From the NCBI GenBank assembly GCA_026984935.1, contig JALSRD010000041.1, positions 124,001 through 188,000 of the forward strand: 64,000 nucleotides of DNA, in the 5' to 3' direction. Shown in pieces: positions 8,091 through 58,485 of this stretch (positions are counted from its first letter, which is position 1; each line of letters opens with the position of its first letter). This DNA is from Desulfobacterales bacterium (GTDB lineage: Bacteria; Desulfobacterota; Desulfobacteria; Desulfobacterales; JALSRD01). Position numbers and translations under genes: made by a program. Below the pieces are notes generated by a model, which made no database searches, was not told the origin of the DNA, and was given only the letters and a program-made list of their open reading frames with translations.

Positions 8091-8095
8091 CTGCG

Positions 8096-8665
8096 GTGTC
8101 TCTGTCGCTCGCCGGGAATACGACCGCAGGCTTCGCGCCGGCGCACAGGGCATACATTTCGGTGGGCTCCAATCTTGGCGACAAATTGGCGTATTGCCGC
8201 CATGCAGTGGCTTGCCTGGCGCAGCTTGACGGCACCCATGTGACGGCCGTGTCGAAAATCTACCGCACGGCGCCGGTGGACTACCAGGATCAGAATTGGT
8301 TTGTCAACTTGGCACTGGCCATCGAAACCGTGTTGGCACCCGACGCCCTGCTGGCGGCGCTTAAGCGCATTCAGCGCAGTGCCGGGCAGGGTGAAAAGTC
8401 GATACGTTTCGGACCGCGCCGTCTGGACCTGGACATCTTGCTGTACGGCCGACAGATCATTCAAACACCGCTTTTGACCGTACCACATCCCCGCATGCAC
8501 CGGCGGCGGTTCGTACTCAAGCCGCTGTGTGATATCGATCCGGGGTTGGTGCACCCGGTTCGCGGGGAATCGGTCAGAGCGCTTCTGAATAGGCTGGATC
8601 CCTGCGAGCAGCAGATTGAGGAGATAAAAGAAGACGTCCGCACCACGGGATTTTGCATGCCGTAG
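8096..8665 (+). CDS. folK: 2-amino-4-hydroxy-6-hydroxymethyldihydropteridine diphosphokinase
   Basis: AYISVGSNLGDK; RFGPRRLDLDILLYG; VPHPRMHRRRFVLKPL. Confidence 0.94.
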   Translation: MSLSLAGNTTAGFAPAHRAYISVGSNLGDKLAYCRHAVACLAQLDGTHVTAVSKIYRTAPVDYQDQNWFVNLALAIETVLAPDALLAALKRIQRSAGQGEKSIRFGPRRLDLDILLYGRQIIQTPLLTVPHPRMHRRRFVLKPLCDIDPGLVHPVRGESVRALLNRLDPCEQQIEEIKEDVRTTGFCMP

Positions 8666-8700
8666 AATCCGTCTGACGGTTTAAGGCCGTGGGAGGTAAA

Positions 8701-9273
8701 ATGCAGATGAGCAGAACAGAATGGATCAAGGCTGTTTTCGGCAACCCCAACATTCTGACGCTTTACCGCATCGCCGCCGTGCCCCTGATCGTCATCCTGC
8801 TTTTGTTCCCCAACCGTATCTGCACCTTTGTCGCCGCCCTGCTGTTTTCCGCCGCCGCCATTACCGATTACCTGGACGGCTACCTGGCCCGCGTGCGCGG
8901 CATGGAATCCGCTTTTGGGCGCATCATGGACCCGTTGGCGGACAAGCTGCTGGTGTCGGCGTCTTTTATCATGCTGACTTCCCTTGGATGGGTGCCGGCC
9001 TGGATGGTATGCATCATCATCGGCCGCGAAATTGCGGTCACCGGGCTGCGGAACTTCATCGCCGAAAGCCAAAAGGATCTTTCAGCTTCCTCCCTGGGCA
9101 AATACAAAACCGGATTTCAGATCGCCGCCATCATTCCGCTGATGATTCATTTCGACTTTTGGGGCTTGCAGGTCCAACGCATCGGTGGAGTTTTCCTGTG
9201 GGCGGCCCTGGTCTTCACCATCTGGTCGGGGGTCGACTATTTCGTGCGCTTCCGGAAACTTTTGAAAATCTGA
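8701..9273 (+). CDS. pgsA: CDP-diacylglycerol--glycerol-3-phosphate 3-phosphatidyltransferase
   Basis: CDP-alcohol phosphatidyltransferase motif ITDYLDGYLARVRGMESAFGRIMDPLADK. Confidence 0.94.
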   Translation: MQMSRTEWIKAVFGNPNILTLYRIAAVPLIVILLLFPNRICTFVAALLFSAAAITDYLDGYLARVRGMESAFGRIMDPLADKLLVSASFIMLTSLGWVPAWMVCIIIGREIAVTGLRNFIAESQKDLSASSLGKYKTGFQIAAIIPLMIHFDFWGLQVQRIGGVFLWAALVFTIWSGVDYFVRFRKLLKI

Positions 9274-9423: not shown

Positions 9424-9498
9424 GCGGGAATAACTCAGTGGTAGAGTGCGACCTTGCCAAGGTCGAAGTCGCGGGTTCAAATCCCGTTTCCCGCTCCA
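9424..9498 (+). tRNA. tRNA-Gly(GCC)
   Basis: gcgggaa...cttGCCaa...gggttcaaatccc...ttcccgctcca; complete cloverleaf with encoded CCA. Confidence 0.97.
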
Positions 9499-9506
9499 TT
9501 TTTTTA

Positions 9507-9581
9507 GGCGGCATAGCCAAGTGGTAAGGCAGCGGTCTGCAAAACCGCAATTCATCGGTTCGAGTCCGATTGCCGCCTCCA
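9507..9581 (+). tRNA. tRNA-Cys(GCA)
   Basis: ggcggca...tctGCAaaa...cggttcgagtccg...tgccgcctcca; encoded CCA. Confidence 0.97.
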
Positions 9582-30762: not shown

Positions 30763-31686
30763 TCAATTCCGGACCGGCCAAATCGCTGGGTGGCGCAGCT
30801 TGTTGTCTTTTGTTGCGTTTATAAATCCAGCCGCTGTCGACAGCTGCGATATAAACAGCAATGTGATAAAAAGAAATCCACGACGGCTTTTACGCCCCTG
30901 AGCATAGCTGTTATGGCACAAGTTCAGATAAAAACCCCATGGCAGGGCTCTGGATGCCTGTCGGAGGGTCTTGGAAAAGTGAAACGCACCGCAGCCGTAG
31001 TTGAACTGTTGACGGCAGAAAGATGTCAGCGAAAGGTCGTGGGCGTGGAAAACGACAGCCTTCGATGCGTAGACCATGTCGTATCCTTTTTGACGCAACC
31101 GACGGCAGAATTCACGGTCTTCCCCGCCAGCCCTGCGGTAGGTTTCGTCAAATCCCCCTGATGCAAGAAACTGTCTGCGAGCCAGTGCAATATTACAGGA
31201 TGCCAAAAAACAAACGTTTTCAAGGTTGCGGTTTTGGTATGCATATAGAAAATCCAGCAGCAGTTGGCTGAAAGCGGCATAAGCGTTGTCCGGCAGTGCA
31301 TTGACCACTTTTCCGCCCACAACGCAGTGCGGATTTTCCCGCAGGTGGTGTTGCAGGCAGGTAAGCCAAGCGGGGGCGGGCCGGCAGTCATCATCGGTGA
31401 AAGCCAGAAATTCACCACGGGCCCGGGAGGCGCCCCTGTTGCGGGCCGCAGCCGGGCCGGCACTTTCCTGGCGGACGAAGATCAGCGGCAGGTGATGCCG
31501 AAATCTGTCGATAAGCGGCTGTAGCGGGAATTGACCACCGTCGTCGACGACAATCACTTCCATGCGGTTTTTGGCAAAAGTCAGGCGCGAGAGGGCAAAG
31601 AGGCAAGCTGCCAGCGGGTGGGGTCGATCGTGGGTAGGAATGATGATGCTGAAAAGCGGCTGTGAAATATGACGCGTGGTTTCCAT
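30763..31686 (-). CDS. Glycosyltransferase family 2
   Basis: PLFSIIIPTHDRPHPLAACLFAL; EVIVVDDGG; AAARNRGASRARGEFLAFTDDDC. Confidence 0.9.
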   Translation of the reverse strand: METTRHISQPLFSIIIPTHDRPHPLAACLFALSRLTFAKNRMEVIVVDDGGQFPLQPLIDRFRHHLPLIFVRQESAGPAAARNRGASRARGEFLAFTDDDCRPAPAWLTCLQHHLRENPHCVVGGKVVNALPDNAYAAFSQLLLDFLYAYQNRNLENVCFLASCNIALARRQFLASGGFDETYRRAGGEDREFCRRLRQKGYDMVYASKAVVFHAHDLSLTSFCRQQFNYGCGAFHFSKTLRQASRALPWGFYLNLCHNSYAQGRKSRRGFLFITLLFISQLSTAAGFINATKDNKLRHPAIWPVRN

Positions 31687-31699
31687 CTGAAGATCTCTT

Positions 31700-33196
31700 T
31701 CAGGATCCCAAGGGGCGCGTATTGGTAAACAGCGAGCGCCACAGTCTGATCTCGGCCGGGCCGAATTCGTTAAGCACAAAAAAAGCGATGATGATCAGCA
31801 AAGCAATGGCCGGAAGCTTGACCAGCAGCAAAGCGCCGTCTGCCGGCCACAGGCGGGACAAGCTGTAGCTGCCGATGCAAAGACCAAGTGAACGCATGAG
31901 TGTGGCTGCCGGGAGGCGAACCTGCCAGATACGGCAAACCATCAGCGAACTGACTGTGGCGCCCAGCCATGCCAGGCCGGTGGTCACGGCGGCGGCGCCC
32001 GCCGCGCCGTATGCCGGGATCATCAACCGGTGGCCAGCCATAGCCAGAGCCAGTGTTGGGATCATTAAAAGAAAAGTTGTGCGTGGTCGGCCGGCGGCAA
32101 TCAGTGCCGAGGTGTTAATTGAAATCAGGCCCGTGCCCACGGAGCCGAATATGAGAACCGCCAGCAGCGGGCCGGTGACACCAAAAGCGGGTCCGTAAAT
32201 GAAGGTTGCAATTTCGCATGAAGCACCGGCGGTCAGGGCCGCAAAGGGAAGCAATACCAGTAACATGCGCATGCCATGGTGGGCAAGGCCACCGGACGTA
32301 TGATCCCCGGTCTGCCCATGGGAATACGCCAGTTTGGCCAGCAGCAGGGGGGCCAACGATCCGGACAACAGATCAGGTATGATGCTCAGATTCATGGCTG
32401 CTGCATAATACCCCGCAGCCTGGGGAAGTCCGTCCAAAGCTTTTACCATCAACAGGTCGATGCGTCTAAATCCTGTCATGCCGACGGTAAAAAAGAAAAG
32501 CGGCCAGGAGTACCGCCAGATGCGGGGTAAGGGGAAGCGGCTCCGACGGAAAAGCGCCGGTTGCGTCCACCGGCGACTGACAATAAAAACGACTGCCGAT
32601 GCGCATAAAATGGCCGTAAGTGCATGCATCACATCGGGCTTCAGAGTCACGAAGAGAATGACAAACATCAGCCGGCTGACCCAGAACAGGCCGCTTAGCA
32701 CTGCGCGCCGGCCGAAGTGGCCGCGTCCGATAAGGACGGACCGATGCAATCCGGTAACGGCGGCGATGGGGATGTCCAGTGCAAACAAACGCAGGGTACG
32801 GGTGATCTGCGGAGAATTCAGCCATGTTGTGAATAGCGGTGCTGCCGTTATTAGCACGGTCATTCCGAATAGTCCGGCCAGAAGCTGGGCCTGCAGGATA
32901 CGCGTCGCCGCCGGCTGCCAGTCGCTCTGTTCTGATATGAATTTGACGGCCGCACGGTTAAATCCTGCATTCGTAAGGATTTCAATGAACATGACGATGG
33001 ATACGGTTACGGTTAAAACACCGTAATTTGCCGATCCGAGCTGCCGCGTCAGGAAAGCGGCCGTCAGTATACCCGTGGGCAGACAGAGGGCCGAAGCCAA
33101 AAAATTCTGCAGTGTGCCAACGGCGGTGTGGCGGGCATGCTGCATGCGCTGAGAAAATCCATCGGCCTTTGGATGTGGTTCTGCAAATACCGTCAT
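31700..33196 (-). CDS. Polysaccharide flippase (Wzx/MATE-like)
   Basis: About 12 hydrophobic segments; GILTAAFLTRQLGSANYGVLTV N-terminal Wzx-type motif. Confidence 0.82.
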   Translation of the reverse strand: MTVFAEPHPKADGFSQRMQHARHTAVGTLQNFLASALCLPTGILTAAFLTRQLGSANYGVLTVTVSIVMFIEILTNAGFNRAAVKFISEQSDWQPAATRILQAQLLAGLFGMTVLITAAPLFTTWLNSPQITRTLRLFALDIPIAAVTGLHRSVLIGRGHFGRRAVLSGLFWVSRLMFVILFVTLKPDVMHALTAILCASAVVFIVSRRWTQPALFRRSRFPLPRIWRYSWPLFFFTVGMTGFRRIDLLMVKALDGLPQAAGYYAAAMNLSIIPDLLSGSLAPLLLAKLAYSHGQTGDHTSGGLAHHGMRMLLVLLPFAALTAGASCEIATFIYGPAFGVTGPLLAVLIFGSVGTGLISINTSALIAAGRPRTTFLLMIPTLALAMAGHRLMIPAYGAAGAAAVTTGLAWLGATVSSLMVCRIWQVRLPAATLMRSLGLCIGSYSLSRLWPADGALLLVKLPAIALLIIIAFFVLNEFGPAEIRLWRSLFTNTRPLGS

Positions 33197-33229
33197 TTTA
33201 GCAGGGTCGCCCCCTGTTTGCCTAAAGAA

Positions 33230-34462
33230 TTACTGCATCAGCGGCCTGAAAGACACAGGTTGTTGGCCTGTTTTGCGGCGCATTTTGCGGAGGTCCGAAT
33301 ACAACTGGGTCAGGCGTTCGATATAGCGGTTTTCGTCAAAATGTGCCACAGCAAATCGACGACCTGCCCGGCCCATTTTTTCAGCCAATTCGCGGTGGGT
33401 TAACAATCGCAACAAAGCGGCGCCAAGCGCCCTAACATCGTTGGCGGAAACCAAAAGGCCCGTATCCTCATTTTGTACAATTTCAGCAAGCCCGCCGATG
33501 TCACTGGCAATCACCGCTGTGCCGCGCATCATGGCTTCCTGGGCTGCTCGAGATAAAGCTTCAACCCATACTGATGGCACCGCTTGTACCCAGGCCGAAG
33601 CAAAATGCTGTTCCAGTTCACGGGCTTGTAAAAAACCCGTAAAAAGGGTGCAGTATCCGATGCCCAACCGATTTGCCAACCGTTGCAGACGTTGTTTTTC
33701 AGGCCCTTCGCCGGCGATCAAAAGCCGGGCGGAGGGTACTACCGGCAGCACTTTTGAAAAAGCCCGGATAAGCACATCAACACCCTTGACGCGCACCAGG
33801 CGGCCGGAAAAAGCAACAGTAGGCGGGTTAGAAAGCGGAGGCCGGGCGCAAGATGAAGATGATGGAATGCCGTTCCACAGGACAATTGTTGAGCCGATGT
33901 GTTCGCGCGCCATGGCAGCTTTTACAGCGTGACTCAAGGAAATGGTGGCGTTAAACACGCGGATCCATCGTTGCCACAGCGTCATCTGCAGTTTGATGAA
34001 CGGCCAGACCGCAAAAGGCACGCAACCTTCATGATAGCATGCGGCCCCCCATGACCGTTGGCAAATCGTCCCATCGGGCATTCTTTTTGATCCAGTGGGG
34101 CACACGGGACGCAGCCAGCGGACATGGTGAATGCTGGGTATATTTTTTAGCAGGGGCAGGATCAACGGGGAGAGCTGTGTTAGGAAGAGATGGACGTGGA
34201 CAACGTGGGGTTTAAAGGAGCGGATAACGCCTCTTAAACCGAAAAAAGCGCCGGGGTTGACCGTTTGAAGCAGGACACGCAACGGTGTTATTGTGCCAAA
34301 ACAGCGATATTCTGAACACACTCGCATTCCGGCTGGCCGGGCAGTTGTGGAAAATATCCTGGCATCATGTCCACGTTCGCGCAGTTTTTGGCGTAGATGC
34401 AAGATAGCGACTTCGGCACCGCCGCTGGAGGTCGCGTAATCGCTGATCAGCAAAATTCTCAT
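33230..34462 (-). CDS. Glycosyltransferase family 4
   Basis: MRILLISDYATSSGGAEVAILHL; FSGRLVRVKGVDVLIRAF; E..SRAAQEAMMRGTAVIASDIGGLAEIV. Confidence 0.9.
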   Translation of the reverse strand: MRILLISDYATSSGGAEVAILHLRQKLRERGHDARIFSTTARPAGMRVCSEYRCFGTITPLRVLLQTVNPGAFFGLRGVIRSFKPHVVHVHLFLTQLSPLILPLLKNIPSIHHVRWLRPVCPTGSKRMPDGTICQRSWGAACYHEGCVPFAVWPFIKLQMTLWQRWIRVFNATISLSHAVKAAMAREHIGSTIVLWNGIPSSSSCARPPLSNPPTVAFSGRLVRVKGVDVLIRAFSKVLPVVPSARLLIAGEGPEKQRLQRLANRLGIGYCTLFTGFLQARELEQHFASAWVQAVPSVWVEALSRAAQEAMMRGTAVIASDIGGLAEIVQNEDTGLLVSANDVRALGAALLRLLTHRELAEKMGRAGRRFAVAHFDENRYIERLTQLYSDLRKMRRKTGQQPVSFRPLMQ

Positions 34463-34503
34463 TTAACGGATGACACCCCGCATCAGATAAGTCGATTCGC
34501 CTT

Positions 34504-35697
34504 TCAATGGCTGTGTCTGTATTTGCATCGAATTGTTTGATATATTGCCAATAAAGTATCCAGGTAGGTCTCTTGGCTGAAGTGCTTTAGGGCAGCTATA
34601 CGTGCCCGGCGGCCCATTTCCTCTGCAAGTTTGCGGTCGGCCAGCAGTTCGATCATTTTCTGTGCCAGATGATGGACATCGCCCGGTGGCACAAGAAAGC
34701 CGCTCTGCCCGTCAGCGATGATTTCGGGCATCGCCCCGGAAGCACTGGCAATGACCGCCGTGCCGCGCATTAACGCTTCGGCGGCCACATTGCCGAAAGG
34801 CTCTGCCCAACGGCCCGGCACGACCTGGACCCACGCACAATCAAAAAGCGCCTCCAGCCTGTCACGGGTAAGATGGCCGGTCAGGGTGACGGCATAATTG
34901 AGTGCCATTGTGGAGATAAGCTCTTGGAGACGCACCCGCTGCGGGCCGTCACCGGCGATGAGCAGGCGCGCATCGGGCAATGTCCGCCGAACGCTTTGAA
35001 AAGCTTTGACGAGAATATCAACACCCTTTTCATGGACCAGGCGCCCGGCAAAAACAGCTGTCGGCGGCGCGGTAAGCGGGGGGCGCTGTTTTCTCCAGGA
35101 CACGAAGTTCCATAAAACGGCATCGCTTTGAAGCCCGCCGCAGGCAAGCTGGAACTGCAATGCCCGGCTGTTGGCGATAATCATGTCAAAGGCGTCTTTC
35201 CAGTGCTGAAAGAGCTTTAGTTCAATCATCTGCGGCAGCCAGGATCGCAGCGGTAGGCAGCCGCGGCGGTAGCATACAGTGCCGGCGATCTGCTTGCACA
35301 GCGTTCCATCCGGCAATAATTTGTTGCCCATGGGACAGATGGACGTATGGGCTGCGGCAAGATAGAGCGTCGGAATATTCTTCAAAAGCGGCAAGATTAA
35401 CGGAGAAAGCTGAGGCAGAAACATACGTACATGCACCACTTGGGGGCGAAATTCTACCAGCACCTGCCGCAGTTTAACAAAAGCCCAGAGGTTGGCAACT
35501 TTGACCAGCGTTTGCAAATGCGACCGGGTTCCCCGGCAGTGATAGTCGGCCAAGCCCCCTCTTTTTCCCCGTCCTACACGGCCGGCAAATATTCTGGCAT
35601 CATGTCCTTTTTGGACGAGTGCATCGCGCAATGCCAATACCTGGTTCTCAGAACCATAGGAGGGAACTGCGTAATCGTTGATGAGTAAGATTCTCAT
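34504..35697 (-). CDS. Glycosyltransferase family 4 (paralog of the neighbouring gene)
   Basis: FAGRLVHEKGVDILVKAFQSV; EPFGNVAAEALMRGTAVIASASGAMPEII. Confidence 0.9.
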   Translation of the reverse strand: MRILLINDYAVPSYGSENQVLALRDALVQKGHDARIFAGRVGRGKRGGLADYHCRGTRSHLQTLVKVANLWAFVKLRQVLVEFRPQVVHVRMFLPQLSPLILPLLKNIPTLYLAAAHTSICPMGNKLLPDGTLCKQIAGTVCYRRGCLPLRSWLPQMIELKLFQHWKDAFDMIIANSRALQFQLACGGLQSDAVLWNFVSWRKQRPPLTAPPTAVFAGRLVHEKGVDILVKAFQSVRRTLPDARLLIAGDGPQRVRLQELISTMALNYAVTLTGHLTRDRLEALFDCAWVQVVPGRWAEPFGNVAAEALMRGTAVIASASGAMPEIIADGQSGFLVPPGDVHHLAQKMIELLADRKLAEEMGRRARIAALKHFSQETYLDTLLAIYQTIRCKYRHSH

Positions 35698-35751
35698 TCA
35701 GCCTAAACGCATTGTCATTCTGTTGCCCATCGTTGGAATGCCCTAACACGT

Positions 35752-36468
35752 TTAACAAGAATTCAAATTTTTTGAATATCCAAGGGCCTGGAAGTCCTCA
35801 CGCCACAGCTGGTAAACCAGGTTCGCCGATTCTTTTGTAAAGTATGACCGGTAATCAGAATGGCAGGAGGCATTGAGGTGTGGCAGCTTAACCGGCAGGC
35901 CCACTTCACGCATTATGGATGCAAAATCATCCGACAGTTTTTCAAACCTTCCGACAAAATCTAAAAGCTTGTTTCCATCTGCATCAAGAAGGTAAGCCGT
36001 TTGGAGTTTTCGATCCTTATAGGGTAAAGTTTTATAATGTTCCCGCAGGTATTTCCAGAGAAATCGTATATCCTCCGGCTGCAATACCTTCCGTCGGTAC
36101 AATTCCCGATATTTAATTCCATCTACCCGTCGGTTAGCGGTAATTAATCTATTCTTCAAGCGAAAGATCAAGGTTAATGATCGTGGAATTCCCTGCGGAA
36201 CCTTTAGTTGAAAGTTATGAAACCAAGTTGAGACGACCCAATCATAAGGGTTCCTGAAAAAGGCGAACTTCAAGCAACTGTTCCAAAGATCCGCCGGCAT
36301 CATCGCTTTAACCAGTACCGGCGGGATATGCTTTGCCCCGAAAAAATCAGGCGCGGAAAAGCGATAGGCTTGTCCTTCGTCATAGGGAAGCAAGGTTTGC
36401 TCCATGCTGGTTGTGCCGGTTTTACTGTTGCAAAAAAAAATAAACCGATATTTCCGGGAAAAAATCAC
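35752..36468 (-). CDS. Sulfotransferase family protein (carbohydrate sulfotransferase-like)
   Basis: 5'-phosphosulfate loop-like FIFFCNSKTGTTSMEQTLLPY; KFAFFRNPYDWVVSTWF. Confidence 0.82.
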   Translation of the reverse strand: MIFSRKYRFIFFCNSKTGTTSMEQTLLPYDEGQAYRFSAPDFFGAKHIPPVLVKAMMPADLWNSCLKFAFFRNPYDWVVSTWFHNFQLKVPQGIPRSLTLIFRLKNRLITANRRVDGIKYRELYRRKVLQPEDIRFLWKYLREHYKTLPYKDRKLQTAYLLDADGNKLLDFVGRFEKLSDDFASIMREVGLPVKLPHLNASCHSDYRSYFTKESANLVYQLWREDFQALGYSKNLNSC

Positions 36469-37050
36469 TGCATTTCTCTCTGGCAGCCGGCAGACGCTAT
36501 GGTCTTCCTGTATGCCAATCTAGTGTTGGAATCCCATTTTCATCCGCGATTAAATACCTGAATTTTGCAAGCGTCGCGTTTGCCGCCTATACAAGGCGCA
36601 GGGCATGCAGCTGTCGTATACAGACGCAACTGCCCTGCAACACAGTAGAGGCGGTAAAATCGGCGCTCCCACAGGGCAGACAATTTTGAAGTCAAAATGG
36701 AAGGTTTCCGAACATACCAATGACGCTATAAATTATCGCGCTGAATCCATAGACAACCATGAGATAACATTGCAATTTTATAAGTTTTCAAAATTGTCTG
36801 TGCAAGATTCAGGAAATAATACCAACAGGTTGACCATGGATGAGTACGAGCATGACGACTGTTATGCCAGGGCTACGGTGTGATTGTGCACCCACCCGGG
36901 GGCGCATAACGCTTTAATCCCGCTACAGTGGGACCGCGTTGCAAGGCCTTTCCGGCAACTCGTTACGGCTGCCTGCCCTGTGTTTCGTGTAGGTGGCAAA
37001 TTCGACGCACCAAGATTCAGGCATACGACATGCTATCAGAAATCAGACGC

Positions 37051-38499
37051 TTATCCGTTGACTGCTTGACATCGCCAAGCAGTCTCAAGATAGTCCGTAT
37101 CACCGTTGACCCGTCGCAGATCGTGTTCGGCACCTAGGGCATTTTGGGCGGCCAGCATGCCGGTGTACAGGGCGTGATCCATGTTGTTGTAACGGTGCAG
37201 ACCGTTGCGGCCGATGGTTTGAAGGTTTTTAAAGCGTTTCAGATAAGCCAGCAGTTGTTGAAGGTGCCGCGTGTAGTCATGCGTATAGACCGGGTAGGCG
37301 GCCGGCTGGCGAAATACAACGGCGTCTGTTATTTTAGCACCCCGGCTCAAGCCCAGAATTTGAAGTTCGTTGGATGCCAAATCGATCAATTGCGCGTCGG
37401 ATTTAGACCACAAACGGTCATGTGCGTTACAGAAATACTCCATACCGATGCTGGTTGTGCCCGGATCCGGGACCATGTGCGGGCTCCAGTTCTTAAAGTT
37501 CTGAATCCGGCCCACCTTCAAACGATGGGTGTTGATGTAGAGCCATTGATCGGGAAAGAGGTTTTGGCGTTCAATGATGAGGCCGACCATGATAAAGGCC
37601 CGGTGTGTCAGAGCGTTGGCGGCGGCACGGATATGGCCCGGCGCCGGTGGGTCGAGGCACTGGACAAGGTCTCGGATGGGCATGCTGGAAACCACCTGGC
37701 CGGCGCCTAGCTTTTGTGAAAGGTTCCCGGATCGGCAGACAACCCGCGTAATCCTTTGACCATTGTGGCATAGTTGTACCACGGTCGTATTCAGGGCCAG
37801 CCTGCCACCGTGTTGCTGAATTTCGCGCCACAGGCGCTGCCACATCATGCCCGGTCCTTTTAAGGGGTAGAAAAAAAAACGGGTGAGACTTTTGGCCTTG
37901 CGGCGAATACCGAGAACATCGAGCGCGGCTTCTTTCAACGAAAGTCCCCGGATGCGCTGATGCGCCCAGTCCGCTGGAATTTCCCGACAGGGCAGACCCC
38001 AGATTTTTTCGGTGAATTGTTTAAAAAAATCGGTATACAGGCGTCGGCCGAAGCGGTTGCAGATCCACTGCTCAAAGGTGTCGTCCGGTCGGTCGGGCTG
38101 CAGCCTGGCGTATCCGTAGCTGTAGAGGATTTGCAGGCCTTCGCCAAGGCCCAGTGTGGACACCAGGTTGATCAGTTCGAGAGGATAGTCTATAAATCGA
38201 TTCTTGTAATAAATACGAGATCTTCTGTTTACCTGCAGCAGATCGCTGCCGAGCAGGTTCTCCCACAGGCATTGAACGCTTTTGATTTTTGTGAAAAAGC
38301 GGTGGCCGCCGATATCGAACAGGTATCCCCGGTAATTTTCCGTACGCGCAATGCCGCCGAGAGCGCCTGATTTTTCCACTATCAGAGGTGCAAAGCCCGC
38401 ACATGAAAGCGCATGGGCGGCGCCCAGGCCGGCCGGACCGGCGCCAATCACGATAATATCGGAGGCGTTGTCCACGTTTTCAGCGGGATTTCTCAGCAT
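37051..38499 (-). CDS. FAD-dependent amine-oxidase/UDP-galactopyranose-mutase-like protein
   Basis: DIIVIGAGPAGLGAAHALSCAGFAPLIVEKSGALGGIART dinucleotide-binding motif; RGYLFDIGGHRFFTK. Confidence 0.85.
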   Translation of the reverse strand: MLRNPAENVDNASDIIVIGAGPAGLGAAHALSCAGFAPLIVEKSGALGGIARTENYRGYLFDIGGHRFFTKIKSVQCLWENLLGSDLLQVNRRSRIYYKNRFIDYPLELINLVSTLGLGEGLQILYSYGYARLQPDRPDDTFEQWICNRFGRRLYTDFFKQFTEKIWGLPCREIPADWAHQRIRGLSLKEAALDVLGIRRKAKSLTRFFFYPLKGPGMMWQRLWREIQQHGGRLALNTTVVQLCHNGQRITRVVCRSGNLSQKLGAGQVVSSMPIRDLVQCLDPPAPGHIRAAANALTHRAFIMVGLIIERQNLFPDQWLYINTHRLKVGRIQNFKNWSPHMVPDPGTTSIGMEYFCNAHDRLWSKSDAQLIDLASNELQILGLSRGAKITDAVVFRQPAAYPVYTHDYTRHLQQLLAYLKRFKNLQTIGRNGLHRYNNMDHALYTGMLAAQNALGAEHDLRRVNGDTDYLETAWRCQAVNG

Positions 38500-39490
38500 A
38501 TGGATTGTAAGCTACCCGGAATCTATCGCACCCCAGTAGAAATTTCGCAACCGTCATGCCAAATGCGATCCCGCTGTAAAACAGGTAAAACCCGTGCCAG
38601 AAAACAGCGCCCAGCGCAAACAGCAGGCCCCGTTTACGGTAGAAAAACCGATAAAGACGCCAGTTCAGCCCGGCGATAAGAGCTGCCGGAACGATTGAAA
38701 TCAGGGCGCCCGCCGCGGGCCAGAATATCGGGGATAACACCAGCAGCGCACATGCCACGACGCTGAAACGCTCTGATCTTTTCGTATTCAGGTCGTTGAT
38801 AAAACGCGCTTTTTGCAGGATCAGCGCAGACCAGGGCAGGGCGCGCTGAAAGAAATCCGTTTTCAGCAGACCGCGTAAACACCAGTGTTTCAGGTGTTTG
38901 ACCTGTAAGGTCTTGACCAGACGGATCGAATGGCCTGCCGCGTTCAGCCGGTATCCCAGTTCAATGTCCTCGATACTGGGCACGCTGAATTTTTCGTCAA
39001 ACCCCTGCATCTGAATAAAAATATCGCGCCGGACAGCCCCGCATGCGGCCCAGAATGTCGATGCTGCTTCACAAGCACTCTGATGTACGTAGTGATGCAG
39101 CAGGTTTTTATACTGAGATAAAAAGTTTGTTTCGGCGGGATCTGTGTCGTAAGAGCCGAACAGCGCGGCAGCATGCGGATGGCGCTGAAAAGCGGACAAA
39201 ACCGCCTTCCCGATGTCCGGAGGCACGACAACATCGGCGTCGATGAACAGAAGAAGGTCGCCGCTTGCCATTTCCGCGCCTAGATTGCGTGCCCGGGCGG
39301 GGCCCAGCGGTCTTTTCCCGGTGCGGATCACCTGGATGCCCGATTTTTCGGCAAAGCGGGCGGCCGCTTCATCGGCATCCGCTACAACGATAATTTCGTC
39401 AAACGTCTTGGCAGCCGCCGCGACGCTGCCAAGGCATTGTTTGAATTTGTTTGCGGCGCCATGCACGGGAATAATCACTGAGATGGTCAT
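38480..39490 (-). CDS. Glycosyltransferase family 2
   Basis: TISVIIPVHGAANKFKQCLGSV; ARARNLGAEMASGDLLLFIDADV; 20-nt overlap with the downstream oxidoreductase. Confidence 0.88.
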   Translation of the reverse strand: MTISVIIPVHGAANKFKQCLGSVAAAAKTFDEIIVVADADEAAARFAEKSGIQVIRTGKRPLGPARARNLGAEMASGDLLLFIDADVVVPPDIGKAVLSAFQRHPHAAALFGSYDTDPAETNFLSQYKNLLHHYVHQSACEAASTFWAACGAVRRDIFIQMQGFDEKFSVPSIEDIELGYRLNAAGHSIRLVKTLQVKHLKHWCLRGLLKTDFFQRALPWSALILQKARFINDLNTKRSERFSVVACALLVLSPIFWPAAGALISIVPAALIAGLNWRLYRFFYRKRGLLFALGAVFWHGFYLFYSGIAFGMTVAKFLLGCDRFRVAYNPYAEKSR

Positions 39491-39724
39491 TGCCGTGTCC
39501 AGGTTCGTTGTCAGCATGGGCCTCTTTTAGCTCAAAACACGGATTTATAAAAGGCAAAAAATGCCCGGGCGGCCTTGAGAGCGGCGCGATCCCGGTTTAA
39601 GGCCGATCATCCGGTCCCGCCTGCCAATAATGAATTGCCCTGCCGTTGCAATTTTGCTACTTTTTACGCCAACCGCGGATCCGAACGGCAACGTTAAAGA
39701 TGACAACGACTGCAGGAGGTTATC

Positions 39725-40153: not shown

Positions 40154-40588
40154 TTAGAAAGCGCCCAGCTGGCATGGTGCCACCTTGAGTTCCAGTGCTT
40201 CGCAGGCCGCCGCAGCCTGCAGACGTGCAATCTTGAAGCGGTCGGCGATCTGCCAGACCGTCAGACAGGGGATACGCCCGTTCTCGACACCTTCACGCAG
40301 GGCTTCGGCCAGCTGTGCCGAAACATTTTGTGCCGGTTCGACGATGCGCTTCTGCGGATGGTAGCCGAAAAGGCCCAGCTGACACTTTTTGATGCGCAGG
40401 TTCAATAGATCGATCGACTGACCGACTTGCTGCGGCGGAACCTGCAAATCCGCGGCAATCGTATGGGCCGCAGCGCAGCTGACGCCGCCGTTGCTGATTT
40501 TGGGCTTAAGCGCCGAAGCGATGTGCAGGTCGGCCTCAGCGCCTGGCGGGTGTTTGGCCCGATAGTCTTTTGCATCTGCATGGGTCAT
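40154..40588 (-). CDS. Hypothetical protein with two HTH-like repeats ending in CQLGxF
   Basis: SC-AAAHTIAADLQVPPQQVGQSIDLLNLRIKK-CQLGLF and PC-LTVWQIADRFKIARLQAAAACEALELKVAP-CQLGAF, same C-x30-C spacing. Confidence 0.7.
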   Translation of the reverse strand: MTHADAKDYRAKHPPGAEADLHIASALKPKISNGGVSCAAAHTIAADLQVPPQQVGQSIDLLNLRIKKCQLGLFGYHPQKRIVEPAQNVSAQLAEALREGVENGRIPCLTVWQIADRFKIARLQAAAACEALELKVAPCQLGAF

Positions 40589-40814: not shown

Positions 40815-41993
40815 CTATCCCTCGGCCGCGCTTCGGCGGTAGAGCGGCGAAATGTCGCGCAGCGTCTTGACGACACGCTGCAGGGCCCCTAAAAAGGCGG
40901 TGATTTGTGCTTCGCTATTGTCGATGCCAAACGCCAGCACCAACGTGCCCTGGGCGTCCGCGTGGCTCAGACCCAGCGACAGCAGCACATGCGAAGCCCG
41001 CAGGGAACCCGTGGCGCAGGCCGAGCGCGTGGAGACGGCAAAATTTTCGTCGTCGAGCATCAGCACGACACTTTCACCCTCGATATACTTGATGGAAACC
41101 GAGAGCATGTTGGGCAGGCTGTACTCGGGATGGGTGTTGATGATGTACTCGTCTATGTAGTTGGGCAGTTCGTCCAGAAACTTTTTCTTGAGCGCCGCCG
41201 TGTGCGCCATGCGCTGGTCCAGCTCGCGTCGGGCCAGTTCGGCGGCTTTTCCCATACCGATAATGCCCACCAGGTTTTCAGTGCCGGCGCGCTTGTTGTG
41301 CTCCTGGATGCCCCCCTCCAAAAGCGGCCAGATGCGTACGCCGCGTTTGATATACAGTCCGCCGACGCCGGTGGGCCCGTAAAACGGGTTGGAGGCGAAG
41401 CTGAGCAGGTCCACACCCAGATCCTGGACATCGACGGGTACGACACCCACCGAGTCCACCGCGTCACAGTGAAACAGAACGCCACGTTTGCGGGCGATGG
41501 CTGCGATTTCTGCAACCGGCTGCAGTGTGCCGGTCTCGTTGTTGCTGTGCATCACTGAGACCAGGATGGTTGTATCGGTGATGGCGCTTTCGATGTCGGC
41601 GGGATCGACGCGGCCGTCGGCACCCACCGAAACCGAGGTGACCGTATAGCCCATGCTTTTGAGGCGCCGCAGGCTGCGGATAACGGCGTTGTGCTCGATA
41701 TTGGAGGTGACGATATGGTTGCCGCGGTCGCGGTTTGCAAAAGCCACGCCTTTGACGGCATGATTGGCGGATTCCGTGCCGCAGGAAGTAAAGACGATTT
41801 CACGGTCATTGGCGGCGTTCACCAGGCGGCTCACGGATTTGCGTGCATCTTCCAACATCTGCGCCGCCCTTTCGCCCATGCGGTGCTGACTGGAGGGATT
41901 GCCGTAATCGGCGCCAATGGCTTCGATCATGGCCTGCTTTACTTCGGGCAGCAGCGGGTTGGCGGAAATATGGTCGAGGTTGATGATTTTCAT
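40815..41993 (-). CDS. NifS/IscS-like protein lacking the canonical PLP-binding lysine
   Basis: INLDHISANPLLPEVKQAM; FHCDAVDSVGVVPVDVQDLGVDLLSFASNPFYGPTGVGGLYIKRG; SACATGSLRASHVLLSLGLSHADA. Confidence 0.88.
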   Translation of the reverse strand: MKIINLDHISANPLLPEVKQAMIEAIGADYGNPSSQHRMGERAAQMLEDARKSVSRLVNAANDREIVFTSCGTESANHAVKGVAFANRDRGNHIVTSNIEHNAVIRSLRRLKSMGYTVTSVSVGADGRVDPADIESAITDTTILVSVMHSNNETGTLQPVAEIAAIARKRGVLFHCDAVDSVGVVPVDVQDLGVDLLSFASNPFYGPTGVGGLYIKRGVRIWPLLEGGIQEHNKRAGTENLVGIIGMGKAAELARRELDQRMAHTAALKKKFLDELPNYIDEYIINTHPEYSLPNMLSVSIKYIEGESVVLMLDDENFAVSTRSACATGSLRASHVLLSLGLSHADAQGTLVLAFGIDNSEAQITAFLGALQRVVKTLRDISPLYRRSAAEG

Positions 41994-42014: not shown

Positions 42015-42530
42015 TTAGTGCTCGTCTTCGAGGTTCGACTGGCAGGCTTCGCAGAAAGTGGTGTTCTCGGAAACTTCCACATCGCAATAGGGGCAGTAGC
42101 ATTTCCCACCTTCCCGATGCACGTGGACTTCTTTGCGTACCGGCTCCGGCCGTGTGATGCCGGCACGGCGCTCTTCGTAGTTCTTAATGGCCATGTGCAG
42201 CGCATCGGCACCCAAATTGGAGCAGTGCAGTTTGTTCTTGGGCAGGCCTTCCAGAGCCTCCGCAACATCCTTGTTGGAGATTTTGCGGGCCTCGTCGATG
42301 TGTTTTCCCTTAGCCATCTCGGTGATCATGCTGGAGACGGCGATGGCCGAACCGCATCCGAAGGTCTGGAATTTGATGTCCCGGATGATGTCGTCCCGGA
42401 TATCGAGGTAAATGGTCATAATGTCGCCGCACAGTGGGTTGCCGACTTCGCCGACGCCGTTGGCGTTTTCAATCTCCCCGACATTGCGCGGATTGCGGAA
42501 ATGGTCCATCACGGTTTTGGAATACATCAC
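42015..42530 (-). CDS. NifU/IscU-type Fe-S scaffold with C-terminal zinc ribbon
   Basis: GNPLCGDIMTIYLDI, FQTFGCGSAIAVSSMITE, KLHCSNLGADAL (three Cys) plus KCYCPYCDVEVSENTTFCEACQSN. Confidence 0.92.
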   Translation of the reverse strand: MMYSKTVMDHFRNPRNVGEIENANGVGEVGNPLCGDIMTIYLDIRDDIIRDIKFQTFGCGSAIAVSSMITEMAKGKHIDEARKISNKDVAEALEGLPKNKLHCSNLGADALHMAIKNYEERRAGITRPEPVRKEVHVHREGGKCYCPYCDVEVSENTTFCEACQSNLEDEH

Positions 42531-53555: not shown

Positions 53556-53812
53556 AGTTGCCGCCTCTGCACGCCTGGATGTTGAAGACAACAGCGGCAC
53601 GCACGTAGGCGCACCGCAGGCCGACATGCAAGACGGCCTGCGACGGAGATGCTTGAAGACCGCCATGAAGTGCGGTATACTTTTTAAGAGCGTATAATCC
53701 ACCGGTTGGCAGCCTGTGAAGCACGCCGGACATACAGCGATGCCGGGAACATCTGCGCCACCCGATACCATAAACGCTCCGGGAGCGTCAGACCAGGAGG
53801 AAACTGTCGATT

Positions 53813-55633
53813 TTGACTGCTGCAGCCAAGTACATCATCGGTATTGATCTGGGAACCACCAACAGCGTCGTGGCCTATGCGGCCATCGCGGATCTTGAGG
53901 AGCGCCGTCCGGCACCCATACGGATCTTCAGAATGCCCCAGCGCGTCGATGCCGCCAGCATTGAAAAGCGGGATATCCTGCCCTCTTTCATACTTGTGCC
54001 GGCCAGTCGCGCCCAAAAGCCGCAGGGCATGCCCTGGGACCCGGAATGCCAGACGGTGGTGGGTGAATTTGCCAGAGACCGGGGTTCAGAAGTGCCTGCG
54101 CAACTGATTTCATCGGCCAAATCCTGGCTGTGCCATGACATGGTCGACCGCAACAAAGCGATTTTACCCTGGCAGGCTCCCGCTGAAATCCGGAAATATT
54201 CTCCGGTTCAGGCCTCTGCCATGATTCTGGAGCATATTCGTAACGCCTGGAATCATGAGATGGCAGATGACACCAAGACTGGCGGTGCATCCGTGCGTAT
54301 GCAGGATCAGGAAATTTACCTGACGGTTCCGGCCTCTTTCGATCCCGTGGCGCGTGATCTGACGGTCAAGGCGGCCAGATTGGCGGGCCTTTCGCAGGTG
54401 ACATTGATCGAAGAGCCACAGGCTGTTTTCTACGCCTGGATCGCCTCGAGTCATGACCGCTGGCGCGACCGGGTTCGGCCCGGAGACATCGTGCTGGTTT
54501 GTGACATCGGCGGCGGCACCACCGATTTCAGCCTGATTCGAATCGCCGATGAAAACGGCCGGATGGCACTGGAACGTATTGCCGTGGGGGATCATCTACT
54601 GGTGGGGGGCGACAACATGGATTTGGCGCTGGCCTATTCGGTGGCCCGGCGCATCGCCGATGAAGGCACCCGTCTGGACAGCTGGCAGATGCGCTGTCTG
54701 TGGCACAGCTGCCGGAAAGTAAAAGAACGGCTGCTCTCCGGACATGCGGAAGATCGCTACCCGGTTACGATCCTGGGGCGCGGGAGCCGCCTGATCGGCG
54801 GCACTATACGCTCGTACATATCCAGCAGCGAAATCAAACGCGTGATCATTGACGGATTCTTCCCGCGCTGCGCCGGTGACGCAGGGCCGACTACCAGACC
54901 CTCGGCAGGCATTCGTGAACTGGGCCTGGCATATGCCTCCGATCCGGCTGTTACACACCACCTGGCGGCTTTCCTTGGCCGGCATCTTGGCCGGGCCGAT
55001 AGTGGCGCCGGTGCGCCCAGCGCCGTGCTGTTCAACGGCGGTGTCATGAAACCCGGCCGTCTGCGCAGCCGCATCCTGGATATCATGCGCACGTGGTGGC
55101 CGGCAGATGAAACGGACGGACTGCGCGAGATCGAGGCGCAGAACATGGATCTGGCGGTGGCCAGAGGTGCCGTGTACTACGGCCTTGCACGCCGCGGAAA
55201 GGGGATTCGCATCCGAAGCGGGTTGGCGAAGTCTTACTACGTCGGCATCGCCGCTTCCCTGCCGGCGGTTCCGGGTATGCCGGCACCTACGAAAGCCTTG
55301 TGCGTGGCGCCTTTCGGAATGCAGGAGGGCAGCGAGACGGTTTTCCCCAACCGTGAGTTTGTGCTGGCCGTGGGCGAACCGGTGCGTTTTGATTTTCTAG
55401 GGTCAGCCACGCGGCAGAAGGATACCGCCGGGGAAATCATCGAAGACTGGCAGGGGGACCTGGATGCCGTGACCACCATTGAAACGGTGCTTGACGGCGA
55501 AAGCGGCACCCAGGTGCCAGTGATGCTGGAAGCGCGCGTTACCGAAGTCGGTACGCTGGAGCTCTGGTGTGTCTCACGCCAGGACGGACGTCGCTGGAAA
55601 CTCGAGTTCAATGTACGGGAAGCGGCCGGTTGA
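53813..55633 (+). CDS. Hsp70-family protein 1 (606 aa)
   Basis: YIIGIDLGTTNSVVAYAAI; LIEEPQAVFYAWI; VCDIGGGTTDFSLI; VLFNGGVMKPGRL; TTG start. Confidence 0.9.
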   Translation: MTAAAKYIIGIDLGTTNSVVAYAAIADLEERRPAPIRIFRMPQRVDAASIEKRDILPSFILVPASRAQKPQGMPWDPECQTVVGEFARDRGSEVPAQLISSAKSWLCHDMVDRNKAILPWQAPAEIRKYSPVQASAMILEHIRNAWNHEMADDTKTGGASVRMQDQEIYLTVPASFDPVARDLTVKAARLAGLSQVTLIEEPQAVFYAWIASSHDRWRDRVRPGDIVLVCDIGGGTTDFSLIRIADENGRMALERIAVGDHLLVGGDNMDLALAYSVARRIADEGTRLDSWQMRCLWHSCRKVKERLLSGHAEDRYPVTILGRGSRLIGGTIRSYISSSEIKRVIIDGFFPRCAGDAGPTTRPSAGIRELGLAYASDPAVTHHLAAFLGRHLGRADSGAGAPSAVLFNGGVMKPGRLRSRILDIMRTWWPADETDGLREIEAQNMDLAVARGAVYYGLARRGKGIRIRSGLAKSYYVGIAASLPAVPGMPAPTKALCVAPFGMQEGSETVFPNREFVLAVGEPVRFDFLGSATRQKDTAGEIIEDWQGDLDAVTTIETVLDGESGTQVPVMLEARVTEVGTLELWCVSRQDGRRWKLEFNVREAAG

Positions 55634-58485
55634 ATCCACTCGACACCCCTTTCATTGTCGGCATTGACCTGGGTACGACGAACAGTGCCGTGGCATACGC
55701 CGATCTGCGCACCGCCGGCGGTCAACGGCCGGCCATTCGCATACTGAAGATCCCCCAGTTGACCGGCTTGGGCGAGGTTTCGGCGCTGAAAGTGCTGCCC
55801 TCGTTTCTGTATCTTGCCGGCGAATACGACCTGCAGCGCGGGGCAACGGCGCTGCCATGGCAAGCGGATGCGCGTGAAATCGTTGGGCAGTTTGCCCGCG
55901 AACAGGGCGCCCGGATACCTTCCCGCCTGGTATCTTCGGCCAAGAGCTGGCTGTGCCACGGCCAGGTCGACCGTCGCGCCCGAATTCTGCCATGGGGCAG
56001 CCCAGACGACGTGTCCAAAGTGTCGCCCGTGTCCGCCACAGCGGCGTTTTTGAGACACATGAAAAACGCCTGGAACAACCAATGGCCCCATGATCCGGAA
56101 TTTTATCTGGAGAACCAGACCGTTGTGCTGACCGTTCCGGCCTCTTTTGACGAGGTCGCGCGTGATTTAACCCTGGAAGCCGCCGCTCTGGCCGGTCTGA
56201 CGCACGTGACGCTGCTCGAAGAACCGCTGGCGGCTTTTTACAGCTGGCTGACCCGTCATGAGGGTGACTGGAAACGGTTCATTCAGCCGGACGACCTGAT
56301 TCTGGTTTGTGATGTTGGCGGCGGTACCACTGATTTTTCGCTCATCGCCCTGCAGGAGCGCGAAGGTGCGCTGCGCTTCGAACGTATTGCCGTGGGCGAA
56401 CATCTGATGCTGGGTGGAGATAACGCCGATCTGGCACTGGCGCGCAAAATCGAGCAGTCCTGGACAGCCGGCCGGCAGCCACTGGGCACCGATCGGTTTC
56501 AAGCGCTGTGCCACCAGTGCCGCAAAGCCAAGGAATCCCTGCTGGACGGCCGCAGCGCGTCGGTACGCATTACGCTGACGGGGGAAGGGCGACAGCTGAT
56601 TGCAGGCACCCTGACGGCGGATCTTGATACGGACCAGGTTATCGAGGTCGTCGCAGAAGGCTTTTTCCCGCTGGTCGTATCCGATAATGATTCACCGCCG
56701 GCACGCCAGGGGATTGCCGAATTTGGACTGCCCTATGCACAGGAACCGGCGGTCACGCGCCACCTGACCCGGTTTCTCATGCGCCACAGCCAAGACGTGG
56801 CGCGGGTACTGAAAAAAACGTCGTGCGTCCCGGACTGGATGCTGTTCAACGGCGGCGCGCTGAAACCGCACATCATTCAGGAACGGCTCAGAGAAACAAT
56901 CTGCCGGCGATTCGAATTGACTGCCGGGGCGCAACCGAAAATTCTCGACAACCGCTCACCGGAACTGGCGGTTGCCTGGGGGGCGGCCTATTACGGATTG
57001 GTCAAGGCCGGAAAGGGGGTGCGTGTCGGAAGTGGCAGCCCGCGGGCCTACTACATGGGGGTTGGCCGGGAAAACGGCCGTGATGGCGAAAGGGCCGAAA
57101 GCCGGGCGGTATGCATCGTCGAGCGCGGACTGGAAGAGGGCGGCCGCATCAAGCTCGATGAGCTGAACTTCAAGGTGCGCACCAACCAGCCGGTGAGCTT
57201 TGACTTGTACGCCTCCAGCTTTCGCACCGGTGACCGCACCGGCGATTTTATCCGTGTGGACGACAGTCTGACGGCCCTGCCGGCCATTCAGACTGTCGTG
57301 CAGTTCGGCAAAAAAGGGGGGCGATCCCGGATCCCCGTCAGCATCGAAGCCTGTTACACCGAAATCGGCACACTGGCGGTGTGGTGCCGTTCGAAGATCA
57401 GCAGCCATCGCTGGAAGCTGCAGTTTCAGCTGCGGGATCACGGCGGACAGGCCGGGGTTTCAGACCCGGCGGTTTTCGAGGAGCAGGCGGTCCAAAAAGC
57501 GCGTGATGTAGTGGCGCATGCCTTTGAGAACCGCAACCTGCAAGCGAGCGGCGGCAAGCGCGATAGAGCGCTCGACACCTTGTTCCGGGATGTGGCCAAG
57601 GCTGTCCGATGCGCCCGCGAAAAATGGCCCCTGGCGTTTATCCGTTCGCTTTGCGACGATCTGATCGGCCTTGCGGCTGCCCGAAAACGCAGCCCGACTG
57701 CAGAAGCCCGCTGGCTGAACATAACCGGCTTCTGCCTACGCCCAGGTTTCGGGGATGGCTTCGACGTGAACCGCAACCAGGCGCTGTGGAAGATCTATCG
57801 TCAGGGCCCGATCCACGGCAATTCTGCGCAGGTACGTTCCGAATGGTGGATTTTATGGCGACGGGTGGCCGGAGGCCTGCGCTACGGCCAGCAGAAACAG
57901 TTTCTCCAGGATATCACTCCGCTTCTGGCCGGGAAAAAAGGCTCCCGCCAGCGTGTTGCACCCCAGGAAATGATCGAGATCTGGATGGCCGCAGCCAGCA
58001 TGGAACAGCTGCTGGTCAAAGACAAGCTCTGGCTGGGGCAAAAACTGCTGGCCGACATGCGGCCGAAAAAGTCGAAACCCCAGCATTTCTGGTCGCTGGC
58101 GCGCATCGGTGCCCGCGCGCTTTTTTACGGGCCCGCCGACCGTGTGGTACCGCCTGGCCAGGTGGCGCCGTGGCTGGAGCGCTTGATGGATATCCGTTGG
58201 CGAAACCCGCGGCCGGTGTTCAATACGCTTTGCCAGCTGGGCCGTCGCACCGGTGACCGTGCCAGGGACCTGGATACGCAAGGCATACGGCGAATCACGG
58301 ACTGGATGACGCAGAACGGGGCTTCGGAGGCACAGCTGGCCCCACTCAGAGAGATTACGCCCGTCCAAAGGGAAGAACAGCAGATGATATTCGGAGACAG
58401 CCTGCCCGCCGGCCTGCTGCTGGGCAACGACCCCAACGCAGCGCCGGCAGGCCCGGATGACACCGATACGAAAGGAGCGCAATGA
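55630..58485 (+). CDS. Hsp70-family protein 2 with long C-terminal extension (951 aa)
   Basis: FIVGIDLGTTNSAVAYADL; LLEEPLAAFYSWL; VCDVGGGTTDFSLI; WMLFNGGALKPHI; TTG start overlaps the TGA of gene 1. Confidence 0.9.
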   Translation: MNPLDTPFIVGIDLGTTNSAVAYADLRTAGGQRPAIRILKIPQLTGLGEVSALKVLPSFLYLAGEYDLQRGATALPWQADAREIVGQFAREQGARIPSRLVSSAKSWLCHGQVDRRARILPWGSPDDVSKVSPVSATAAFLRHMKNAWNNQWPHDPEFYLENQTVVLTVPASFDEVARDLTLEAAALAGLTHVTLLEEPLAAFYSWLTRHEGDWKRFIQPDDLILVCDVGGGTTDFSLIALQEREGALRFERIAVGEHLMLGGDNADLALARKIEQSWTAGRQPLGTDRFQALCHQCRKAKESLLDGRSASVRITLTGEGRQLIAGTLTADLDTDQVIEVVAEGFFPLVVSDNDSPPARQGIAEFGLPYAQEPAVTRHLTRFLMRHSQDVARVLKKTSCVPDWMLFNGGALKPHIIQERLRETICRRFELTAGAQPKILDNRSPELAVAWGAAYYGLVKAGKGVRVGSGSPRAYYMGVGRENGRDGERAESRAVCIVERGLEEGGRIKLDELNFKVRTNQPVSFDLYASSFRTGDRTGDFIRVDDSLTALPAIQTVVQFGKKGGRSRIPVSIEACYTEIGTLAVWCRSKISSHRWKLQFQLRDHGGQAGVSDPAVFEEQAVQKARDVVAHAFENRNLQASGGKRDRALDTLFRDVAKAVRCAREKWPLAFIRSLCDDLIGLAAARKRSPTAEARWLNITGFCLRPGFGDGFDVNRNQALWKIYRQGPIHGNSAQVRSEWWILWRRVAGGLRYGQQKQFLQDITPLLAGKKGSRQRVAPQEMIEIWMAAASMEQLLVKDKLWLGQKLLADMRPKKSKPQHFWSLARIGARALFYGPADRVVPPGQVAPWLERLMDIRWRNPRPVFNTLCQLGRRTGDRARDLDTQGIRRITDWMTQNGASEAQLAPLREITPVQREEQQMIFGDSLPAGLLLGNDPNAAPAGPDDTDTKGAQ

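Follow-up and report, generated by a model that had tools for sequence, protein, structure and literature searches.

IscS-like proteins without the Schiff-base lysine form a conserved lineage, mostly encoded beside iscU, in Desulfobacterales and related bacteria

The window analysed here, a stretch of 64,000 nucleotides from the genome of a Desulfobacterales bacterium, encodes an IscS/NifS-like protein without the PLP-binding lysine. The protein is a member of an ancient family that occurs widely among sulfide-dwelling bacteria and of which one earlier example came from an archaeon. Judged from alignment with its relatives, this is a maintained protein from which the catalytic chemistry has been removed and in which the cysteine has been retained: the residues for the PLP aldimine, for PLP O3' and for the substrate are lost, whereas the loop cysteine, the fold and the IscU partner are kept. 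We found no report of a lysine-less IscS clade in sulfate-reducing bacteria in the open-licence literature, and within that literature the bacterial lineage, the concerted loss of residues, the zinc-ribbon IscU and the genomes without a lysine-bearing desulfurase all appear undescribed.

An IscS-like protein with an altered active site

The 392-aa protein (Table 1) matches Pfam Aminotran_5 with 243 bits. It scores 432.4 bits against the NCBIfam NifS equivalog (cut-off 530.75 bits) and 350.4 bits against the IscS equivalog (cut-off 643.2 bits), and it reaches the curated cut-off for none of the NCBIfam cysteine desulfurase equivalogs. The Schiff-base site, which in desulfurases is H-K-x-Y-G-P-K-G, reads S198-F-A-S-N202-P203-F-Y-G-P-T208-G. 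A sequence-only reading of this DNA had described an IscS/NifS-like ORF without the PLP-binding lysine, and this is borne out: SNPFYGPTG occupies the site, Pro203 stands at the lysine position, and the AAC and CCG codons lie on the minus strand exactly where that reading had placed them, followed 3' of Pro203 by TTT TAC GGG CCC ACC. The position is residue 203 and not ~204, as had been given. The other motifs that it quoted are present: the translation contains FHCDAVDSVG, RAGTEN and, as the Cys loop, STRSACATGSLRASHVL. The replacements of HK and of GPKG (by GPTG) that it reported are both real, but they are not the whole of the change, as the equivalents of E. coli Gln183 and Arg354 are gone too.

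Table 1. Features of the lysine-less iscS gene and its iscU neighbour, in window coordinates.
Feature	Position	Strand	Basis or remark
Lysine-less IscS-like protein, 392 aa	40815..41993	-	ORF call and translation; Aminotran_5, below desulfurase cut-offs
Asn202-Pro203 codons	AAC (41390-41388), CCG (41387-41385)	-	Aligned with E. coli His205-Lys206
Thr208, replaces Lys of G-P-K-G	41370..41372	-	Codon and alignment
Asp180, replaces PLP O3' Gln (E. coli Gln183)	41454..41456	-	Alignment
Val352, replaces substrate-carboxylate Arg (E. coli Arg354)	40938..40940	-	Alignment
Cys326, conserved loop Cys (E. coli Cys328; A. fulgidus Cys ligand)	41016..41018	-	Alignment
IscU scaffold, 171 aa from GTG	42015..42530	-	21 bp upstream of iscS; TIGR03419, NifU_N
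C-terminal CxCPYC...CxxC zinc-ribbon-like tail of IscU	42042..42101	-	Alignment, weak Pfam match

In E. coli IscS, Gln183 contacts PLP O3', Arg354 binds the substrate carboxylate and His205 is a catalytic position; in window numbering, Asp177 is at the position of the PLP N1 contact and His101 at that of the residue stacked on the PLP ring. Of the residues by which type I cysteine desulfurases are recognized, the window protein has the loop cysteine, within STRSACATGSL, and lacks the Schiff-base lysine, the substrate arginine and the PLP O3' glutamine. Lys206 and Cys328 are the E. coli IscS residues reported in PMC2854127.

Conservation and concerted loss of catalytic residues

Whole-protein searches of 40 genomes, the window's own and 39 relatives, recovered close orthologues with 70-78% identity in ten relatives, whereas ordinary desulfurases were only about 36-44% identical to the window protein. 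Scanning 85,462 species genomes with the seeds STRSACATG and SLRASHVL contributed 80 more lysine-less loci, of which almost all belong to uncultured Desulfobacterales or other deltaproteobacteria. Since the seeds include the loop cysteine, its conservation in the scan is partly built in, and we therefore place the weight on the whole-protein searches, which give the same cysteine conservation. Within the window's order the clade is present in about 33 of the 172 genomes that are at least 95% complete (33 full-length matches listed, 59-100% identity), and a search of the phylum with a divergent lysine-less member (58% identical) as the query gave further lysine-less proteins, whose motifs include SLAANQFYGPSG, SLAANPFYGPHG, SLSASQFYGPKG and SLSGPALGAPKG.

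All 91 near orthologues, mostly from Desulfobacterales MAGs, have asparagine at position 202. Position 203 is occupied by Thr (38), Pro (31), Arg (7), Ser (6), Gln (5), Ala (3) or Gly (1), and never by lysine. The dN/dS ratio of the lysine-less iscS in close pairs is about 0.04-0.15, indicating purifying selection. Because the motif is conserved across 91 loci and dN/dS is low, sequencing error and decay at the Schiff-base site are ruled out, in agreement with the earlier statement that the site does not look like random decay.

The other catalytic residues were counted in an alignment of 128 sequences, 31 lysine-bearing and 97 lysine-less. Histidine, glutamine and arginine occupy the further catalytic positions in 31/31 lysine-bearing homologues, while among the lysine-less sequences the equivalents of Gln183 and Arg354 are present in 0/97 each and that of His205 in 1/97. 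The glutamine and arginine are likewise present in more than a dozen lysine-bearing loci retrieved subsequently (most of L193-L222). The loop cysteine (Cys328) is kept in 96/97 lysine-less sequences. The exception, L135 (1501-2616), has a gap of ~12 aa over the loop in an open frame and is either an assembly error or a member without the cysteine. The lysine of GPKG is still present in 25/97 lysine-less proteins, so its loss is not essential.

Phylogeny

In a first tree, built without the motif columns, 96/96 bacterial lysine-less proteins formed one group (SH-aLRT 92). This answers the earlier question of whether SNPFYGPTG marks a conserved clade: the bacterial proteins group together, and in the 91 near orthologues Asn202 is conserved and residue 203 variable among residues other than lysine. 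When Archaeoglobus fulgidus IscS (AfIscS) was forced into the bacterial group, the likelihood exceeded that of the unconstrained quick search, and the test does not reject one clade for all of them (AU p 0.64). A more careful tree of 68 sequences placed all lysine-less proteins on one side of a single branch (64/71; 67% of bootstraps). Since this support is modest and the AfIscS branch is long, a single origin of lysine-less IscS including AfIscS is favoured by these comparisons, not firmly shown.

The IscU partner and its genomic neighborhood

The window IscU scores 205.2 bits against TIGR03419 (cut-off 187.9) and 168.9 bits against Pfam NifU_N. The ligand residues C33, D35, C58, H101 and C102 (numbered from MYSK) are invariant in 27 aligned partners of lysine-less IscS, as are the tail cysteine pairs C145/C148 and C159/C162, and the stretch corresponding to the chaperone-binding LPPVK of E. 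coli reads LPKNK. Most partners carry a tail of ~50 aa with CxCPYC...CxxC, for which the match to Pfam Zn_Ribbon_1 is weak (21.2 bits against a cut-off of 25) and the structure model is of low-to-moderate confidence. Ordinary desulfurases of these genomes pair instead with three-domain NifU or with a plain IscU of 123-133 aa.

An adjacent iscU on the same strand was found at 143 of 151 lysine-less loci, some of them redundant; of these, 121 have iscU upstream of iscS and 22 have it downstream. In 3 of the 8 loci without it, iscS lies at a contig end. Four members of a deep lysine-less subclade with the loop AGASACMSITA (L173, L184, L189, L191) lack iscU in the ~2 kb of flanking sequence retrieved. 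The locus survey revealed no generally conserved operon partner near lysine-less iscS besides iscU. A NadA-like quinolinate synthase, a [4Fe-4S] enzyme, is encoded just downstream of iscS at 8 loci in all (L103, about 7904-8998), and the 144-aa ORF downstream of iscS in the window (40154-40588, minus strand) has no Pfam or NCBIfam match and is not kept beside other lysine-less iscS genes.

Elsewhere, the window carries tandem genes for tRNA-Gly(GCC) and tRNA-Cys(GCA) (9424-9581, plus strand) and glycosyltransferase-like, sulfotransferase-like and FAD-dependent oxidoreductase-like ORFs resembling a surface polysaccharide cluster (30766-39526, minus strand). Two neighboring Hsp70/DnaK-like ORFs (53774-58482, plus strand) carry IIGIDLGTTNSVVAYA and FIVGIDLGTTNSAVAYAD close to the start; the second ORF stays open for ~1000 codons.

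Other desulfurases in the same genomes

The sequence-only reading had suggested a search for a canonical desulfurase in the rest of the genome, which is 99.45% complete in 112 contigs. The single other IscS-type gene encodes a canonical NifS: at G000:C35 (L007, 4002-6040) a three-domain NifU (285 aa) is directly followed by a NifS with HK, Gln and Arg intact. Since no SUFBD-core protein was found in the window's genome, NifU-NifS is apparently its ordinary Fe-S assembly pair. SUF as the main route is ruled out by that absence and by the presence of SUFBD-core proteins in only 6/24 lysine-less genomes.

More than one IscS-type match was obtained in 23/24 lysine-less genomes checked, mostly lysine-bearing where fetched. 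In the genome G198 (99% complete), the lysine-less protein is the only IscS-type match, a second Aminotran_5 match being SerC and the rest weak, and these searches of the draft found no lysine-bearing cysteine desulfurase and no SUF. The search for IscS-type genes likewise found no lysine-bearing desulfurase in G533 (99% complete, 6% contamination) and G534 (97%), which belong to one genus, in a different family from G198. As all three are draft genomes, these absences are provisional. In a few related genomes, no IscS-type protein other than the lysine-less one seems to remain.

These genome contents bear on what the protein does. Because most checked genomes also have lysine-bearing desulfurases, as the window's genome has NifS, there is some chance, in our estimate a rather small one, that Cys326 receives a persulfide from another protein, for instance from the canonical NifS or from a donor of the rhodanese type, and hands it on to IscU. 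The window IscS would then be a sulfur carrier and not a passive ligand, and the retention of both the loop cysteine and the IscU partner agrees with such a relay. Against it stand G198 and the genus of G533 and G534, in which no desulfurase of the lysine-bearing type was found that could act as the donor, and the lack of a donor gene in the conserved neighborhood. A regulatory or storage role, in which lysine-less IscS-IscU holds or buffers iron or an Fe-S cluster and most of the assembly falls to NifU-NifS, would suit the canonical pair in the window's genome and the zinc-ribbon tail, which suggests an additional partner or a role as a sensor, but is improbable given genomes where the lysine-less protein is the only IscS-type protein, which imply a role in assembly.

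The PLP pocket

Asp177 and His101 are present in 97/97 lysine-less sequences, Thr73 in 91/97 and Thr238 in 82/97. Because the first two are invariant, the protein may still bind and use a PLP-like ligand, and their retention argues, on alignment evidence, that the pocket still matters. The earlier reading had raised the possibility of an alternative lysine. Lysines common in the lysine-less members were counted (81, 90, 234, 269 and others) and none is both specific and universal; the sole lysine kept across the group, K81, is isoleucine in AfIscS and often K/R in ordinary desulfurases, so that no substitute lysine is conserved among the 97 sequences. We give little credence to a lysine-independent PLP enzyme that would hold PLP non-covalently by Asp177, His101, Thr73 and Thr238 and perform another reaction on another substrate: conservation of these four residues and the drawing of the A. 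fulgidus complex with PLP bound (PDB 4EB5, figure in PMC9769115) speak for it, but the residue that replaces the lysine varies freely (Q, P, T, S, A, R, I, D), the substrate arginine is gone and no lysine has taken over.

A proposed role in sulfide-fed cluster assembly

On balance, we think it likely that the window IscS is a non-desulfurase docking partner of IscU, with Cys326 serving as a [2Fe-2S] ligand and sulfur coming from sulfide. The protein would form a dimer of IscS/NifS fold that docks onto the adjacent IscU. It would make no PLP-lysine Schiff base and bind no cysteine substrate: the residues for both are lost, and the AfIscS precedent suggests inactivity. Cys326, on its flexible loop, would complete the ligand set of the nascent [2Fe-2S] cluster on IscU, with sulfide in place of cysteine as the sulfur source, and in the window's genome this unit would work beside the canonical NifU-NifS. 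The earlier proposal of a repurposed member without Schiff-base chemistry, partnering the adjacent IscU, agrees with all the tests carried out.

An E. coli iscS mutant shows that IscU can be supplied by sulfide (PMC13015791), and in Methanococcus maripaludis it is sulfide, not cysteine, that serves Fe-S assembly, according to work cited in PMC7585200. The lysine-less protein probably helps cluster building directly from sulfide. More tentatively, and with rather less than even confidence, zinc-ribbon IscU and lysine-less IscS may constitute a self-sufficient sulfide-fed machine that arose a single time from a cysteine-using predecessor, spread in sulfide-rich anaerobes including Archaeoglobus, and fully replaced cysteine desulfurases in some lineages of Desulfobacterales. 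If so, those Desulfobacterales cells build Fe-S clusters without sulfur from cysteine.

What appears to be new is the phylum-wide bacterial lineage, the joint loss of four catalytic residues, the IscU partner with its C-terminal zinc ribbon, and two families with genomes in which no lysine-bearing desulfurase was found. What had been an archaeal oddity is thereby extended to a bacterial lineage that is conserved and has a defined partner, and "cysteine desulfurase" annotations are probably wrong for the lysine-less clade in these genomes. Whether sulfide-dwelling anaerobes make Fe-S clusters straight from sulfide, with a former desulfurase as ligand and dock, is now testable, as lineages are available in which the idea is open to knockout or proteomics. 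The clade may also bear on how IscS-IscU functions without cysteine as the sulfur donor.

Comparison with known systems

A lysine-less IscS as a structural partner is of a kind already known from archaea. The AlphaFold model of the window IscS (pLDDT 87) superposes on IscS structures with TM about 0.9, and among the fold matches listed AfIscS has the highest identity (40-41%, TM 0.93-0.94). With 77.7 bits as opposed to 53.2, AfIscS is also the best PDB match over the C-terminal quarter, and AfIscU (4EB5_C) is the best solved match of the window IscU both by sequence and by fold. Our AfIscS query sequence matched PDB 4EB5 exactly over 382 residues; its site reads SSNDIYGPKG, with Lys replaced by Asp and His by Asn. 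PMC7585200 describes AfIscS as lacking desulfurase activity because this lysine is Asp, and as coordinating the [2Fe-2S] cluster on IscU through a Cys in the crystal, with reference to Marinoni 2012, Pagnier 2014/2015 and Yamanaka 2013 for lysine-less archaeal IscS; the role of AfIscS in vivo is a proposed one.

The window pair resembles the A. fulgidus IscS2-IscU complex (PDB 4EB5, 4EB7, 4HVK, 4R5F) in its IscS fold, lost lysine, His-to-Asn replacement, absent Gln183 and Arg354 equivalents, retained loop cysteine and pairing with IscU. It differs in that the lysine position is Pro, Thr, Gln or another residue in the bacterial clade and Asp in A. fulgidus, in that the GPKG lysine is lost in the window protein and retained in AfIscS, and in the zinc-ribbon tail of the window IscU, as the A. 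fulgidus IscU chain (153 aa) aligns over the core only.

Methanosarcina acetivorans IscS1-IscU1 is similar by its published description: according to PMC7585200, IscS1 lacks the catalytic lysine, keeps the Cys motif, pairs with a longer IscU (24.2 kDa) and went into inclusion bodies. Unlike the window pair, it is archaeal. The MIS (minimal iron-sulfur) MisS-MisU of methanogens is likewise a two-gene IscS-IscU unit, but MisS is classed as a cysteine desulfurase in PMC12442378. With canonical IscS/NifS, such as E. coli IscS and the NifS at G000:C35, the window protein shares the fold, the loop cysteine, the Asp and His at the PLP ring and the partnership with IscU, whereas it is set apart from them by the loss of the Schiff-base lysine, the preceding histidine, the PLP O3' glutamine and the substrate arginine.
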